A DNA stretch of 64,000 nucleotides from a virus. The notes below the pieces were generated by a model. It saw only the letters and a list, made by a program, of their open reading frames with translations, was not told where the DNA came from and ran no database searches. This document shows positions 53,607 through 64,000 of this stretch, piece by piece (position 1 is the first letter of the stretch; each line of letters opens with the position of its first letter). The stretch is from positions 22,905 through 86,904 of the IMG/VR virus record IMGVR_UViG_3300045973_000445; one strand, 5' to 3'. The position numbers were made by a program, and so were the translations under genes.

Positions 53607-54338
53607 TCAAAATTTACCTGTTAAACCTCTACGCACACCTTCCCAAACACCAACCCCAATTAATGAATGAACCCACCACTTATCAATCCATCTCTGATTA
53701 TCCTGGATGATGACCACATCCATTGTATTTATCTTTATATACTTGTTTTCTGTAGAGAATATACCCTTTGGCACTAACTTCAAATTCAGAAATCCAGTTC
53801 CAACATAACCTATTGAAATACTACCTGAAAAAGGAGTATCCAACTTAAACCATGCTTTCTTTGTAGAATCCAGCCCAGCATCAAGATTCAGATATTTATC
53901 ATGCTGTTCTAGTAATTGGAACGGATACCGAACATAGTTCCTTTTGACTCCTGATGAATCCTTTATTGTTATATACTCTGTTTTTGGAGGTAGTCCTAGT
54001 AATGAGTCCTGTCTATGTATAGTTCCTGACAGTTCTGTATTCGTAACCAGATCTTTCATGTGTATCTTCTTCAGAAGCTCTTCTCTTACCAGTCCTGCTT
54101 TGATAGCATCTTCCTGTCCTATTATAATAGCATTCTTTTCCCAGACCTGATTCTGCACCCCCTTTATCTTTACGGTAAGATGTCCTATGGAATCTTTAAG
54201 GGCTATTATGTTGCTCACCTGCTGCTCTAACACTCTCTTGGTGCTGCACTTGCCAGCTACAAACGCAAGGGCTACAAGCCCAGCAAACAGGCAAACGAGC
54301 ACTACTATTTTCTTATACTTTAACCAGATCTCTTTCAT
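53607..54338 (-). CDS. membrane-anchored coiled-coil protein
   Basis: 243 residues. Short cytoplasmic start (MKEIWLKYKK), one transmembrane segment (about 11-28, IVVLVCLFAGLVALAFVAGK), then a coil (QVSNIIALKDSIGHLTVKIK) and a mixed domain. Rz-like spanins share the TM plus coil layout, but this protein is longer and lies beside the portal. It overlaps the portal stop by four bases. Confidence 0.6.
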   Translation of the reverse strand: MKEIWLKYKKIVVLVCLFAGLVALAFVAGKCSTKRVLEQQVSNIIALKDSIGHLTVKIKGVQNQVWEKNAIIIGQEDAIKAGLVREELLKKIHMKDLVTNTELSGTIHRQDSLLGLPPKTEYITIKDSSGVKRNYVRYPFQLLEQHDKYLNLDAGLDSTKKAWFKLDTPFSGSISIGYVGTGFLNLKLVPKGIFSTENKYIKINTMDVVIIQDNQRWIDKWWVHSLIGVGVWEGVRRGLTGKF

Positions 54339-56038
54339 TTTGCGGATAATTCAGTATTTATGTATTTTATCAATTCATTTGTAATCGGGTCTTCTGACTT
54401 CCCCTTCTGCATCCCTTCTTCAAAAGAATCAAATGGATTTTTTGCCCCACTGGAATCTCCTCCATTTTGCTGGTCAACCATTCCGTTCATTCCTGCGCCC
54501 CCGAAAGCCTGCTGAGCTTTTTGTTGTGCGTACACGCTATTTAAAATTGTATCCTTTTCAGGATCGAATACTCTCCCAGAATACTCTTTAAATTTATCCT
54601 CAAGTGAAACCATGCCGTTAGCCAACTTCTTTACATCATTGTCTAGTTTTTGCGTCTGGTCTTCCACATCAACTCCTGTAAAAACAAACTGATAATTTGA
54701 ATCAAACTCAGAAACTATAAACTTGTCTATATTCTTTTGAATCACTTTAAGCAGGGGCTTCAGCCCTTTATCCTTGCTGTGATCCTGACGTTGCTTTTGT
54801 CCCCCCTCACCAAACAGAGTGGTCTGCTGACTAAACCGAAATCCTAGCTCTGAGGGATCCATGTGAAACACGCTACAGGCCACCAACGTCAGAAACTCCA
54901 TCCATTTGCTGAACTCCATCTCTTTGTTGGTATTTTGCATATCCACCCAGTTCAGCTTATCCGCCTCAAAGATCGGAACCTTATGAGCATTCTGCCAACC
55001 TGTAACCATCGATCTCCAAGCCGACCGGAAGTCATTAAGCATTCTGGGGTCTACCCCACCCTGCATCGTAAAGAACCCACGTGGGTTTGATCCATTCGTA
55101 AAGAACCGACCATTATACTCCATTGACTCCAGAAGCCATGTGACGACACGCATCAGAACCTCCAGTTCGCTCTGACCGTATCCATTGGCCATAATAGAAC
55201 TCTGCTTGTTGCGTACCGCAAAGCACATCTCCCACGGATACCAAATCACATCCTGTTTTGTTTTTGGATTCTGAAGAACCCTCTCACGCCACACCTGAAC
55301 ATAATGAGGAAGATACTCATGCCCTTTGTAATTCAAAGACTCATACTTCCCATTTTCTGTGTTGTAATTAGGATCGATGGTCTCCAGCAACCTGATCGTT
55401 GCACTGTCCACACAATCATACGATAGCAAATCCCCTCCCCGTGTGCGCTGAGTCTCAAAGCACCCCTGATCAAGCTCAAGCATGTCCTTTGGGAATATCT
55501 TTAAAAAGTCATGGAAGTCATTGTGAACAGTAAACTTGGCATCAATACCCCCGTTCTCCAAGAAGTCAATTATCTTCTCAATAGCCCGTTTATCCTTATC
55601 TGTGTTCTTATACTCCTCTTCGAATCGTCCCATCCTACGTTTGATCGTCCACCCAGGCTTTCCTTCATCATCCGAATAATCAGCAAAATCTAGTATCTGA
55701 TTGATACGTGTGCTGATTACAGAAAAGATCATCGGGGTAGCTCCCATCGAACGCAAGAAGTCAAACGGCACAGTCTTAACGGCTGTCTTGTAGCCCATAC
55801 CTGTATAAAACTCATTATCGGGAGCAAACAGGAATGCCTTCTGCTGATCTTTAAAATCCTTACCAGTCATCGACTGCTGATACTGCAATGCCTTCATAAT
55901 ATCATCTGGCTTATTGCTCTCCAGCAACCGCTGATGCAACAGCGACTTATGAATAGATAACTTCTGCATCTGTTCATCAATCGCTGGCAGCGTCTGAGGA
56001 AGCCTTATTGCTGTATTTCTGCTTTTTCGATTTGACAT
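54335..56038 (-). CDS. portal protein
   Basis: 567 residues. Typical portal features: FYTGMGYKTAVKTVP, VISTRINQILDFADY near the wing, a conserved WYPWEMCFAVRN block and a GYGQSELEVLMRVVTW helix before the crown. The C-terminus is low-complexity, with a tail rich in charges. It forms the dodecameric ring through which DNA enters and leaves. The overlap with the glycosyltransferase gene is about 34 bases. Confidence 0.9.
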   Translation of the reverse strand: MSNRKSRNTAIRLPQTLPAIDEQMQKLSIHKSLLHQRLLESNKPDDIMKALQYQQSMTGKDFKDQQKAFLFAPDNEFYTGMGYKTAVKTVPFDFLRSMGATPMIFSVISTRINQILDFADYSDDEGKPGWTIKRRMGRFEEEYKNTDKDKRAIEKIIDFLENGGIDAKFTVHNDFHDFLKIFPKDMLELDQGCFETQRTRGGDLLSYDCVDSATIRLLETIDPNYNTENGKYESLNYKGHEYLPHYVQVWRERVLQNPKTKQDVIWYPWEMCFAVRNKQSSIMANGYGQSELEVLMRVVTWLLESMEYNGRFFTNGSNPRGFFTMQGGVDPRMLNDFRSAWRSMVTGWQNAHKVPIFEADKLNWVDMQNTNKEMEFSKWMEFLTLVACSVFHMDPSELGFRFSQQTTLFGEGGQKQRQDHSKDKGLKPLLKVIQKNIDKFIVSEFDSNYQFVFTGVDVEDQTQKLDNDVKKLANGMVSLEDKFKEYSGRVFDPEKDTILNSVYAQQKAQQAFGGAGMNGMVDQQNGGDSSGAKNPFDSFEEGMQKGKSEDPITNELIKYINTELSAK

Positions 56039-56907
56039 TCTTGAAATAGATATTCATTAACAAAGGCTGTCACCTTATTATATAGCTCTGGGCATTCTCT
56101 AGATAGTCGTGCCTTAACGAGCTGACCCACCCGATCCTGTTTCTTTATCCCACCCCACAAATGGCTATAGCCATTATCTGTATTCTTTACCAGATCCGTA
56201 GCATCATCTGATATAACCTGCACCTGATCCCTCATCTGATGTGCTTTTATTAATGATGCTGCAAAGTACTGTTCATGGAACAGGTTCTGATGCATCAGCA
56301 CATTCTTAAAGTTCTCAAAGAAGATACTCTGGTTTTCCGGAGCAAAGATATACTCTGAACTGCATTTGATCCACTCTTTGAAAAAAGATAAATTGTGTCC
56401 CCCACAGATTCCGCAGTTGTATGCAAAATCAGTAACTTCATTATCTACAATAATCTGTGGTCTTACCTTTGCATGATCCCAGCTGGGTCTCAGAACATCA
56501 TACCATTTATAGTTTGGTACGTTCATGATCTCCTTGCTTTGAAAGCAAAGCTCTGCATCCAATATTCGCTGGGGTAGTGGTTTCCAAAGGAACACATCAT
56601 TGTCGATATGAACAAACGGCTCAGTCTGCTTGGTATACGCTACCAGTTTGCCGTATGCCCAGAACCACTTTGAGATTCCCTTTATTGAATCCAGCTCCGA
56701 TGTATATTGTGTTGCTGGAATACCGACTGCTTTTAATACTTTAACCCCCCAAGAACTAGTCACAATCTGAACATCCTCGAAATGACGCATGGCTAGATAA
56801 GTAGCCAGTGTCATCGAGTAGAGAAAGTCAGAGTAATTCTTGAAGCCCGCTTTATTGCTAAAGGACTCATCGGGGTTAAAGTACGAAAAGACAGCCCGTT
56901 TGATCAT
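56005..56907 (-). CDS. glycosyltransferase-like protein (DUF6734 type)
   Basis: 300 residues. GT-A style: an N-terminal strand (KRAVFSYFNPDESFSNKAGF), a D-x-D site PFVHIDNDVFLWKPLP (about 96-111), and acceptor-side motifs (YNCGICGGHNLSFF; HLWGGIKKQD). This looks like the DUF6734 family of Bacteroidota. It may glycosylate a virion component. It lies between a small unknown gene and the portal, overlapping the portal start. Confidence 0.78.
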   Translation of the reverse strand: MIKRAVFSYFNPDESFSNKAGFKNYSDFLYSMTLATYLAMRHFEDVQIVTSSWGVKVLKAVGIPATQYTSELDSIKGISKWFWAYGKLVAYTKQTEPFVHIDNDVFLWKPLPQRILDAELCFQSKEIMNVPNYKWYDVLRPSWDHAKVRPQIIVDNEVTDFAYNCGICGGHNLSFFKEWIKCSSEYIFAPENQSIFFENFKNVLMHQNLFHEQYFAASLIKAHQMRDQVQVISDDATDLVKNTDNGYSHLWGGIKKQDRVGQLVKARLSRECPELYNKVTAFVNEYLFQECQIEKAEIQQ

Positions 56908-58263: not shown

Positions 58264-58857
58264 TCACAAGTCATAATTTTGAAACTCCTTCAGATAGGTT
58301 GCTATTGATGTGCCAAAGATATCATGGCTGTTATACTGTTTCTGCTTCTTGGCATGGTAGATATCCAAACGGTGACCATCAATTAATATATAAGTACCCC
58401 ATGATAGCAGATATTTTGAAACAGCCGTCATGCCTCCTAAATGAACTGCTGCCAGCAGACCTGACTCTGTTACAGGAATACCATCGATAACAGTACCTAT
58501 ATAACATTCATAGGGTTTCAACATCGTTTTATTTAAGTCCACCAGACTTCGTAATGCCTGTAGCTGAGCACTGGGTGGAAAGATCATCGGATTCACTTTG
58601 AACTTTCTTAAAGAGATATCACGATATCCAAGTAAGTGTAGTGTTGCTTCCTTCCACTGATGTTCCCCAAAACAGCCTATCTTATTAATGATCTTGTAAT
58701 TGTTGCGGGATTCCCGCCACCCCAAGTCATCTGCATAATGAATAAATCCCCTTCTAAGTGGCTGTGTTCTTAATATATCAAAATGAATAGGCACTACAGG
58801 TGCTGTGCAAACTATATGATTCATTACTATCAATACCAATATAATAATTCGTTTCAT
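58264..58857 (-). CDS. lysozyme/transglycosylase-like endolysin
   Basis: 197 residues from the ATG at 58857. An N-terminal signal or anchor segment (MKRIIILVLIVMNHIVC) suggests export. The core has the lysozyme-like catalytic region: LGWRESRNNYKIINKIGCFG (E49 as probable catalytic acid) and HQWKEATLHLLGY, then VTESGLLAAVHLGGM. It would break peptidoglycan for lysis. It is separated from the preceding gene by a terminator-like hairpin. Confidence 0.75.
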   Translation of the reverse strand: MKRIIILVLIVMNHIVCTAPVVPIHFDILRTQPLRRGFIHYADDLGWRESRNNYKIINKIGCFGEHQWKEATLHLLGYRDISLRKFKVNPMIFPPSAQLQALRSLVDLNKTMLKPYECYIGTVIDGIPVTESGLLAAVHLGGMTAVSKYLLSWGTYILIDGHRLDIYHAKKQKQYNSHDIFGTSIATYLKEFQNYDL

Positions 58858-58888
58858 TTCTTTTGATTTCGTTAAAACTAATGTACGA

Positions 58889-58926
58889 CAAAAACCCACA
58901 AGTATTTAATAACCTGTGGGTTTTAC
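58889..58926 (-). terminator. terminator-like hairpin between lysis-region genes
   Basis: AAAACCCACA (58891-58900) and TGTGGGTTTT (58915-58924) form a ten-pair stem with a loop of about 14 bases. On the minus strand it ends in TTTTTG, consistent with an intrinsic terminator after the gene at 58946-59386. Confidence 0.75.
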
Positions 58927-60982: not shown

Positions 60983-61011
60983 TAAAAATAAACAATAGTT
61001 TTTAAAATTAA
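60983..61011 (-). promoter_or_regulatory. conserved AT-rich motif before DUF5675 gene
   Basis: Minus strand: TTAATTTTAAAAACTATTG then TTTATTTTTACA. It overlaps the end of the glycosyltransferase gene and lies just before the ATG at 60977. A moderate match to the stronger copies. Confidence 0.45.
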
Positions 61012-61730
61012 GGGCGTCTCCTGTACTGCTGATTCCGCATGACCGAGCCCTCCTCATCATGATGTCCTGTTATTGTTGTCGTGATACATCCTTCTTTTCC
61101 TGTAGCCTTCATCTCATTTCTCAGCTGCTCCCAAAGATAAGCATCGCAGGGAGATTGAATTCCTTCCACATGTAACCTATCCATCACACGTATCTTTGTA
61201 TCTGTGTATTTTACACAAGTAACTGAAGCCACAATCCCCCCGTCAATCGGATAAAATGGAAGCATCTCATTTGTAATCGGTAATCCTGGAAGAATGTGTG
61301 CTCCAAGATACGTGGCCGAGGTACAGCAGAATATAGGCTTCCTCTCCTCAACCATCCTGTTGATAACCTCCAGATGGTTCATTTCCCAAACATCATCGTG
61401 TGCCTGATGACAGATATACTCGTAGCCATCGGCTAAAGCCATCTCAATGCCTTTATTTACCGCAGTAACGCCTCCTGCACACCAGATGTTCATATTCCCA
61501 ACTCCGTATCGGTCTCGCTCCACGGATCGCACCAAGTTAACGCAAACCACGCCCACGTGCCTCTTGGCTATTGCTTTCAACTCAGCATCGTCCCTGTAGG
61601 CATCCCCAATCAGATATATCTTATAGTCCCTGAAGGTCTGCCTGTCAATACAATCCAAAGTGCGCTCCAAGTACATGGGAGACTTCCCATCCAGCCTTTG
61701 GTACGTAGCGATAATAATAGCTAATCTCAT
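61008..61730 (-). CDS. glycosyltransferase family 2-like
   Basis: 240 residues. GT-A fold start MRLAIIIATYQRLDGKSPMY, the DxD-like CHQAHDDVWEMNHLEVI (about 107-123), and an acceptor region with CDAYLWEQL. A typical inverting GT2 shape, small and without membrane anchors. It is the last gene of the sugar cassette and lies two bases after the second GT. Confidence 0.85.
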   Translation of the reverse strand: MRLAIIIATYQRLDGKSPMYLERTLDCIDRQTFRDYKIYLIGDAYRDDAELKAIAKRHVGVVCVNLVRSVERDRYGVGNMNIWCAGGVTAVNKGIEMALADGYEYICHQAHDDVWEMNHLEVINRMVEERKPIFCCTSATYLGAHILPGLPITNEMLPFYPIDGGIVASVTCVKYTDTKIRVMDRLHVEGIQSPCDAYLWEQLRNEMKATGKEGCITTTITGHHDEEGSVMRNQQYRRRP

Positions 61731-61732
61731 AA

Positions 61733-62461
61733 TCAGTCTAGATGATATCCGTTAGTAGCTCTTACTGTTCCCATTCCTGCATGATTTTCATTATGCTGAA
61801 CAAACTGCATTTTATGCTGCCACAAGTCATCCGTCAGCCACTGAGCCCTTTGCAATATCGACTCACTCTTCCCAGCAATATATATCTGCCTCATGGCCTC
61901 AATCAGAGGAGCTCCTCCTTTAATTGGATCAGCATACTGCTTTGCCACATCCTTATTTATAAGAGCAAAGGCAGGATGCAAATAATCCACCCATATCTTA
62001 TTTTTACTCTCCCTAACGCCAGTTGTCTGCTGTCTTGTATTTCCTGTTCTGAATCTTGATTTTATAGAACCAATAGTAACTGGAATCCTAGCTATGATCG
62101 TCTCCATATAAAACTCCTTTTGTATATCCCCAATACCATAACTATCCTTTCGCAACTCGCTCTCCATCATCTCCAGCCACCCCCTACCATGTATAATCAT
62201 ATCAGAGTCCACTAGGAGAATCTGATCTGTTTTTATATGGTTTATCCCATACACCATTCCTGGGCCGTGATGAATATTATAATCAAAATGAATCAACTCA
62301 ACATTATACTTCTTTGGGAAATTCTTTATCTTCTTATAGTACCCCTCCGAGGATCCGTCAATAACCAGATAAGGTACATCCGGATAAAACTTCCGAAAGG
62401 ATGATAGTAATCGATCCAGATATTCTGGAGTATTGTAATTAACCGTTAGTACTGTTGTCAT
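61733..62461 (-). CDS. glycosyltransferase family 2-like
   Basis: 242 residues from the ATG at 62461 (MTTVLTVNYNTPEYLDRLLS). The metal site is LLVDSDMIIHGRGW. The C-terminal half has DYLHPAFALINKDVAKQYAD. It overlaps the aminotransferase gene by about 23 bases. Presumably it transfers the sugar made by the preceding enzymes, but the donor is inferred. Confidence 0.85.
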   Translation of the reverse strand: MTTVLTVNYNTPEYLDRLLSSFRKFYPDVPYLVIDGSSEGYYKKIKNFPKKYNVELIHFDYNIHHGPGMVYGINHIKTDQILLVDSDMIIHGRGWLEMMESELRKDSYGIGDIQKEFYMETIIARIPVTIGSIKSRFRTGNTRQQTTGVRESKNKIWVDYLHPAFALINKDVAKQYADPIKGGAPLIEAMRQIYIAGKSESILQRAQWLTDDLWQHKMQFVQHNENHAGMGTVRATNGYHLD

Positions 62462-63083
62462 TTGTGTATATTGGATAAATAGAAATATCTGGATATAATG
62501 ATTCCACATCAGGGCAGTCCCTCTTATTACCAGCCAGATCATAAAACTGACCTATCAGCTGTAGTCCTAGTGTTGAAAAGATCGGATGCAAGTAAAAATT
62601 CCACCCAAGCATCTCAAAGCTGTCCGCAAAGTAATCACACTCATCTCTTCCGGAGAACCGAGCCTTCTTAAACCATTTGTACGCATCCTCATTATCTGTA
62701 AGGATACATCCTCCCTTGCCGAGCTTCATCGGTTTATACTTTCCTGTAAAGGAACAGCACATAAATGTATCTGGCTTATACATGTCTGCTGTAAACCGCA
62801 ATGCACTATCCCATGTCTTTGATCCAATGAGCTGATAAGCTCCTTTGATCTTATCCCCTCCTTCCATTGGAAGAAACTTAACCAACCCCCCTGCATGAAT
62901 GATTTCACAAGGGACACTCATGTATGTTCTACTTGGTATCGCTATAACCTTCCCTTTGATACCTTCATACATCAAGGATAAAAACATAGCATTACTACAG
63001 CTATCCAGTGCCACCACGTATGGTGCGCCAGTATAATCAGCTATTGCTTTTTCAAACTCTTCTGTTACTTTATACGGATTCAT
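62439..63083 (-). CDS. compact DegT/DnrJ/EryC1/StrS aminotransferase
   Basis: 214 residues, much shorter than the usual 360-400. PLP-fold features are present: VVALDSCSNAMFLSLMY (cofactor loop), IPSRTYMSVPCEIIHAGG, and a lysine-bearing SFTGKYKPMKLGKGG then CILTDN. It would add an amino group to a keto sugar nucleotide such as the FdtA product. The short length suggests a reduced phage form lacking the C-terminal small domain; activity is not certain. Confidence 0.8.
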   Translation of the reverse strand: MNPYKVTEEFEKAIADYTGAPYVVALDSCSNAMFLSLMYEGIKGKVIAIPSRTYMSVPCEIIHAGGLVKFLPMEGGDKIKGAYQLIGSKTWDSALRFTADMYKPDTFMCCSFTGKYKPMKLGKGGCILTDNEDAYKWFKKARFSGRDECDYFADSFEMLGWNFYLHPIFSTLGLQLIGQFYDLAGNKRDCPDVESLYPDISIYPIYTNDNSTNG

Positions 63084-63489
63084 TTTTATATTTTATAAAT
63101 TCATCATAGTTTCTTATGTAATCACTCTCATCATACAATTCGGATGCCAGCACCAAACACACAGCATCCTCTGAAAACTGATCCAGCTCTCGCCATATCC
63201 CAGGAACGACCAGCAACCCTTTATGAGGTAATCTCAACTTTACATTCCACCTCCTGATACCATCATTTAAGATTACCCGAAACGAACCGTTCACAGGAAT
63301 GATCAGCTGATATAATGATTTGTGAGCATGATTCCCTCTGACGGATCCGTCAGGCACATCGTAGATATAATAAGCTCGCTTAATATCAAACTTTTCATTC
63401 TGGACGATTGTCAGCTTGCCCTCATCCCTCAGTACTGTTTTCAGTGAGATCAGATGGCAATTATATATGGTTGATTCTACCCCGTTCAT
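63070..63489 (-). CDS. sugar 3,4-ketoisomerase, FdtA/QdtA (WxcM-like cupin)
   Basis: 139 residues, the usual size. Clear cupin signature: RAYYIYDVPDGSVRGNHAHK, LYQLIIPVNGSFRVILNDG, LLVVPGIWRELDQFSEDAV, ASELYDESDYIRNYDEF. Known members isomerise dTDP-4-keto-6-deoxyglucose to the 3-keto sugar. ATG overlaps the upstream stop (ATGA). Together with the aminotransferase and GNAT this suggests a dTDP-3-acetamido-3,6-dideoxyhexose route; the starting sugar must come from host RmlA/RmlB or genes outside the window. Confidence 0.9.
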   Translation of the reverse strand: MNGVESTIYNCHLISLKTVLRDEGKLTIVQNEKFDIKRAYYIYDVPDGSVRGNHAHKSLYQLIIPVNGSFRVILNDGIRRWNVKLRLPHKGLLVVPGIWRELDQFSEDAVCLVLASELYDESDYIRNYDEFIKYKNESV

Positions 63490-64000
63490 TTACGATGCTT
63501 ATCTAATAGCAAATCTATCTTAGCAGAGTACTCTGGGTAGTCCTCCTTAAACAATGACAAGAAGTATAGGCTCTGAGGCTCTCCCTTAAGCAAAACATGA
63601 TCCACAAAGAACCCCTCTTCACTCATGCCGAGATATCGTTGCAAATCATAAACCTTCTCATTCTTGCTATTGATTGTACCTGATATCTTTCTGAAGTTCA
63701 TCTTATTAAATACGTAGCCATATGTTAACTTCAATGCCTCCAGACCATACGGAGTTGATTTATGAACAAATGAATCATGCAAAAGAAGTCTCCCTACATT
63801 TGAAACACCATTAACCCAGTTGCAATCGTAAATGGAAACCATGCCCACCTTATGAACTCCAACAGAATCATATATAATGTAATTCACTTCATCTCCTGTT
63901 CGGCTTTCCTGCCACTTCAACTGCATCTCTAATGAATATCCCTCTGGACAGTTCAGATACTCAGCTGATTTACTTGAGCGCAATTGATGTATAAATGAAG
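63486..64000 (-). CDS. GNAT-family N-acetyltransferase, 5' truncated
   Basis: The frame is open to the window end, so the start lies outside; a TTG at 63983 is unlikely to be the true start. GNAT features: YIIYDSVGVHKVGMVSIYDC, GRLLLHDSFVHKSTPYGLEA (acetyl-CoA loop area), and FNKMNFRKISGTINSKNEK. It resembles WecD/RimJ-type enzymes that acetylate amino sugars. Its four-base overlap with the ketoisomerase gene supports a role in the sugar cassette. Confidence 0.82.
   Translation of the reverse strand, partial: SFIHQLRSSKSAEYLNCPEGYSLEMQLKWQESRTGDEVNYIIYDSVGVHKVGMVSIYDCNWVNGVSNVGRLLLHDSFVHKSTPYGLEALKLTYGYVFNKMNFRKISGTINSKNEKVYDLQRYLGMSEEGFFVDHVLLKGEPQSLYFLSLFKEDYPEYSAKIDLLLDKHRK

Follow-up and report, generated by a model that had tools for sequence, protein, structure and literature searches.

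A candidate phage cassette for an N-acylated amino-dideoxysugar includes a compact DegT aminotransferase of a mostly viral family

INTRODUCTION

What does a phage make with a row of sugar-enzyme genes lying next to its structural genes, and onto what would it place the product? The question is raised by the end of a fragmentary virus record of 86,904 bp, of which bases 22905-86904 (64,000 nucleotides, here called the window) were analyzed; position 64000 of the window is the contig end. A previous, sequence-only reading had proposed an amino-deoxysugar cassette with a dTDP-linked acetamido product. Phage-borne synthesis and transfer of sugars is already a known kind of function, as described in PMC7029224 and PMC7824862. 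Phage sugar clusters are usually explained merely as "LPS genes"; the new parts here are a compact aminotransferase family and an acyl set. We consider it reasonably probable that the cassette serves the synthesis and transfer of an N-acylated 3-amino-3,6-dideoxyhexose, a claim that concerns its biosynthetic role and not the acceptor.

RESULTS

On the minus strand, five genes follow one another from the contig end in the direction of the portal gene. These encode a GNAT-fold N-acyltransferase (63486..63998; PF13302, 26.4 bits, just above the cut-off of 25.4), an FdtA/QdtA-type NDP-4-keto-6-deoxyhexose 3,4-ketoisomerase of the cupin type (63070..63489; PF05523, E=1e-44), a compact DegT sugar aminotransferase of 214 aa consisting of the large domain only (62439..63083; PF01041, E=1.4e-15), and two GT2 (GT-A) glycosyltransferases (61733..62461 and 61008..61730; PF00535, E=4e-12 and E=5e-6, both over the cut-off). 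The first four genes overlap, by 4 bp (GNAT/FdtA), 14 bp (FdtA/DegT) and 23 bp (DegT/GT2), and the sequence-only reading was thus right about the places of the genes in a tight operon as well as about their families, all with Pfam matches. The longest open reading frame of the first GT2 spans 61733-62542, with the in-frame ATG at 62461 being the better start. The metal-binding Asp motifs, as read from the sequence, are DSD in the first and HDD in the second GT2; the latter had 23 blastp matches in the fetched loci, and its relatives lie near a compact DegT in more than 20 other viral loci.

The cassette lies, as had been stated, beside phage structural genes, upstream of and on the same strand as the portal gene (54335..56038, minus strand; phrog_12, E=2.8e-32), where the structural module starts. 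Since portal, major head protein and tail sheath genes are present on the record, the virus is a myovirus; its host is likely a member of the Bacteroidota, because the portal protein is closest (32-40% identity) to those of phages infecting Bacteroides and Chryseobacterium. The start of the portal gene is overlapped by the gene of a DUF6734 protein (56005..56907, minus strand; PF20508, E=1.5e-43), which contains a glycosyltransferase-like HIDNDVF stretch and is possibly a third transferase, its membership in the cassette being uncertain. Between the cassette and the portal gene, a 211-aa open reading frame (58264-58899) has no Pfam match and looks lytic-transglycosylase-like by eye. Elsewhere in the window, an 823-aa phage protein (38963-41434) matches NUDIX-hydrolase families and, weakly, a portal family.

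The ketoisomerase conforms well to its family. The PF05523 cupin profile covers residues 10-135, a whole-length match, and the solved FdtA, QdtA and WlaRA ketoisomerases are matched at E=1e-30 to 1e-22 (PDB 2pa7 at E=1e-30). Both active-site His residues are present, RGNHAHK of the window protein aligning with RGFHAHK of 2pa7; in 2pae, an Asn stands at the first active-site His of the pair. The position of Arg17 in 2pa7, which does not strictly define the family, is occupied by Glu23 in the window protein and by Ser in its counterpart in L057, a 35-kb phage contig described below. This residue, Arg in FdtA and Tyr in QdtA, influences the stereochemical outcome, and with Glu and Ser at the position the sugar configuration is not readable. 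FdtA is rare in viral contigs: a single-sequence viral scan gave no match, and an alignment-based viral search gave 12 contigs.

The aminotransferase scores 57.9 bits against PF01041 (curated cut-off, 19.8), although profile positions 92-163 (the middle segment) and 240-360 (the C-terminal part) are without a match, and the protein does not have the two-domain architecture of about 370 residues. The AlphaFold model, built from 87 sequences (pLDDT 93.7, pTM 0.90), is a confident one and matches the large domain of sugar aminotransferases: the best Foldseek matches in the PDB are perosamine synthase, PseC and ArnB, with TM scores of 0.63-0.68 over the query. None of the solved DegT matches is as short as the window protein. 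It shares with full-length DegT enzymes (perosamine synthase, PseC, ArnB, QdtB) the large-domain fold and the PLP Lys, Asp and Ser, but compact members have about 210 rather than about 370 residues and have lost the middle segment and the C-terminal domain. D92, S111, K117, Y54 and R142 are invariant across the 87 aligned compact proteins. K117 aligns with the catalytic (Schiff-base) Lys of perosamine synthase. D92 was assigned by eye as the PLP-binding Asp, from its DxA motif and from where it lies in the model; both PLP-site residues are thus kept. N162, kept in 86 of 87 sequences, is by analogy presumably the partner-subunit Asn of a shared active site. The compact DegT is probably a PLP-dependent dimer of the large domain only.

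The absence of the C-terminal domain and middle segment could also mean that the protein is a noncatalytic or regulatory PLP-fold protein, for instance the partner in a hetero-oligomer, and a solved hetero-oligomeric DegT-type aminotransferase does exist (8y96). We regard this as improbable, given the invariance of the PLP-site Asp and Lys, the strong purifying selection (median dN/dS of 0.094, maximum 0.33, in 74 close pairs) and the lack of a full-length partner next door in most loci. Nor is the gene a decayed or frameshifted DegT: it has 87 equally short relatives, and a dN/dS of about 0.09 also rules this out.

These relatives form a discrete, mostly viral family. Searching with the single sequence gave 13 viral relatives, whereas an alignment search matched at least 590 viral stretches; the best 80 of these loci were fetched, and all carry a compact-type DegT. 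In the 87-row alignment the lengths range from 198 to 243 aa (median, 210), and every member matches PF01041 at E<=0.001. A tree of 46 rows sets the compact proteins apart from the rest by a branch supported at 100/100, and the window and L057 proteins (68% identity) are sisters (97/88). A profile comparison with the full-length DegT of Flavobacterium phage immuto gave no significant score. Members from cultured phages include one from immuto (KNV73_gp172; 60% identity) and one from cyanophage S-SCSM2R (34%). A single-sequence scan of bacterial genomes revealed no compact DegT; an alignment search of bacterial species genomes yielded about ten, all in contigs of metagenome-assembled genomes. 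Two of these contigs, L024 and L030, look chromosomal, and we therefore rejected the notion of a phage-only family. What had been taken for an unusual half-size variant is thus of normal length for a large, mostly viral family and is not peculiar to this phage.

The usual unit formed by this family is an aminotransferase with an acyltransferase: in 73 of 90 loci the compact DegT has a left-handed beta-helix acyltransferase (NeuD/PglD) no more than five genes away, mostly directly downstream, and a WbqC cluster is present in 11. All 46 neighbor acyltransferases scanned matched the NeuD/PglB/VioB model at E<=0.001. A cluster of RmlB-like dehydratases (PF16363, from a scan of one member) is found in 13 loci. 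In the window and in L057, GNAT and FdtA occupy the place of the NeuD-type enzyme. Nine loci (L015, L016, L017, L059, L061, L068, L093, L102 and L122) show the fixed order of a beta-keto acid cleavage enzyme (PF05853, from a scan of one member), a NeuD-type acyltransferase and the compact DegT; the PF05853-type neighbors are perhaps another acyl-donor route. A second shortened DegT class of 306-316 aa, in which the middle part is again reduced, was seen in viral contigs L139 (2196-3146) and L145 (7022-7942), in both of which it directly adjoins FdtA.

L057 carries the same GNAT-FdtA-DegT trio. Its genes run in the order FabG-like, KAS III, methyltransferase, MaoC, FkbH, acyl carrier protein (ACP), GNAT, FdtA, PseB/FnlA-like dehydratase, compact DegT, methyltransferases and glycosyltransferases, and terminase, with FdtA (48% identical to that of the window) one gene away from the compact DegT. 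Outside the trio, the fetched part of L057 and the window's contig share only a weak DNA-methylase match; a search of the L057 record for the window's portal and head proteins found none, although an empty result in such a search is weak evidence. Since L057 is otherwise dissimilar to the window's contig, the three genes are probably passed together from phage to phage. L057 also bears on the nucleotide. The proposed dTDP appears to lack support, as the sole relative of the trio with a dehydratase carries a PseB/FnlA-like enzyme and not RmlB.

The same dehydratase is compatible with FdtA standing off the DegT pathway, so that DegT would give a 4-amino sugar and FdtA would serve another one. 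The closest structures (perosamine synthase, PseC, ArnB) are indeed 4-aminotransferases, and most compact DegT loci are without FdtA. Nevertheless, we think this rather unlikely: FdtA overlaps DegT in the window, is one gene off in L057 and adjoins the mid-size DegT in L139 and L145, and Pro118 (beside the catalytic Lys) and His166 occur, among the 87 compact proteins, exclusively in the two linked to FdtA. These two residues would fit a changed substrate, but they may only reflect kinship.

The nature of the acyl donor is suggested by the GNAT. The 5' end of the window gene is cut by the contig end, leaving about 29 N-terminal residues fewer than in its best and only close relative, the L057 GNAT (67% identity; PF13302, 40.9 bits), directly upstream of which lies the ACP gene. 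The canonical acetyl-CoA loop R/Q-x-x-G-x-G/A is absent from both proteins, HKSTPYG standing in the window GNAT and HASTPFG in that of L057. Since both are without this CoA-binding glycine loop, we infer that acyl-ACP would fit as the donor. Of the earlier proposal, the amino-deoxysugar pathway is supported, while the acetamido product is less certain, given a GNAT that has no usual acetyl-CoA loop and whose only close relative directly follows an ACP gene.

The source of the sugar precursor would have to be sought elsewhere. The sequence-only reading had suggested looking beyond position 64000 for rmlA and rmlB, but the window ends where the record ends, and neither RmlA-type (PF00483) nor RmlB-type (PF16363) nor PseB-type (PF02719) genes were found on the fragmentary 86.9-kb record, the control genomes being all positive. 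As the contig encodes neither a 4,6-dehydratase nor a nucleotidyltransferase, the precursor would have to be supplied by the host or by genes in the missing sequence. A wrap-around of the contig as the source of genes upstream of GNAT was rejected, as what stands at the left end is a tandem repeat of 27 bp, read in a plus-strand frame. This repeat (record bases 1-232, designated L003 1-232 and lying outside the window; 8.6 copies) forms a broken contig end and encodes 9-aa repeats, TGNQAGSQA-like, perhaps of a fiber-like protein.

DISCUSSION

The model of the cassette is based on the enzyme families found in it, on their catalytic residues and gene order and, for DegT, on selection and the predicted fold. 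In the proposed pathway, the host would provide an NDP-4-keto-6-deoxyhexose, the FdtA cupin would isomerize this 4-keto sugar to the 3-keto sugar, and the compact DegT would transaminate C3 to give a 3-amino sugar, 3- rather than 4-amination being presumed. GNAT would then acylate the new amine to a 3-acylamino sugar, and the two GT2 enzymes would transfer the finished sugar; the order of these reactions is likewise putative. We favor this role because of the overlapping operon, the His pair of FdtA, the conserved residues of DegT and the selection on it, the structural model, and the recurrence of the trio in L057, as well as because FdtA adjoins the mid-size DegT in two further contigs and acyltransferases so frequently accompany the compact one. 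Against it stand the missing C-terminal domain and middle segment, which leave the DegT activity putative, the Glu of the window FdtA at the Arg17 position, and the lack of dehydratase and nucleotidyltransferase genes on the contig.

The FdtA/FdtB/FdtC and QdtA/QdtB/QdtC pathways, leading to dTDP-Fucp3NAc and dTDP-Quip3NAc, likewise combine a 3,4-ketoisomerase, an aminotransferase and an N-acyltransferase. The phage cassette differs from them in its half-size aminotransferase, in having no RmlA/RmlB on the record, in the above-mentioned Glu, and in using a GNAT as acyltransferase, whereas FdtC and QdtC are left-handed beta-helix acyltransferases. The immuto sugar cluster (NC_055915) also has a 214-aa compact DegT among glycosyltransferases, but there its partners are an epimerase and an acyltransferase of the PglD type and, unlike in the window, neither FdtA nor GNAT adjoins it.

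The acyl group is perhaps a non-acetyl, ACP-derived one. Tentatively, one may imagine that phage genes largely make the acylated sugar, from an ACP-borne polyketide-like chain (KAS III, FabG-like, MaoC, FkbH) as in L057. It is equally speculative that the GNAT without a CoA loop would acylate a sugar aminated by a one-domain PLP aminotransferase, and that the window's own acyl genes would sit just past the contig end. A precedent by analogy for ACP-made acyl groups on amino-dideoxysugars would be the O-polysaccharide locus of F. psychrophilum, whose Qui2NAc4N bears a 3,5-dihydroxyhexanoyl group (PMC6519341). Like L057, that locus includes ACP, ketoacyl-ACP synthase and reductase genes, there serving the N-acyl group of the amino-dideoxysugar; it differs in being bacterial, with a PglD-type acyltransferase, a UDP-Qui2NAc4N pathway and no FdtA described (PMC6519341).

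As to the acceptor, we lean slightly towards a virion protein rather than a host surface glycan, because the cassette adjoins the portal gene and lies near terminase in L057. That the same chemistry places the sugar on host lipopolysaccharide or capsule, blocking superinfecting phages, has somewhat less than an even chance in our estimation. Modification of the O antigen against competing phages was proposed for cyanophage and pelagiphage clusters in PMC7824862 and PMC7029224; these "LPS" clusters similarly combine phage nucleotide-sugar enzymes, cupin sugar isomerases and glycosyltransferases, and in the passages on them neither a compact DegT nor an acyl-ACP set is described. The probably chromosomal L030, in which the compact DegT lies a few genes from KAS III, GT2 and GNAT with an ABC transporter also near, resembles surface-glycan loci, and the F. 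psychrophilum O-polysaccharide bears an acylated amino sugar (PMC6519341). On the other hand, the adjoining structural genes suggest late expression, when superinfection exclusion would be less useful. DNA is a less likely acceptor than either virion or host glycan. DNA-modifying phage glycosyltransferases are known, according to literature cited in PMC12619734, but no thymidylate-synthase-type base-modifying gene (PF00303) was found on the 86.9-kb record, itself a fragment, and transfer of the sugar to phage DNA seems to us very improbable.

Full-text searches of open-access literature returned nothing on the compact DegT family, on its link with acyltransferases or on the ACP-linked set of L057; this is weak evidence, as subscription journals lie mostly outside that literature. 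Being discrete, very common, mostly viral and usually near acyltransferases, the family offers a definite marker and an enzyme open to assay, which for a PLP sugar aminotransferase would be unusually small. Its member in the cultured Flavobacterium phage immuto makes the use of phage-made amino sugars testable at the bench, and the gene set of L057 suggests that phages may even produce the acyl group.
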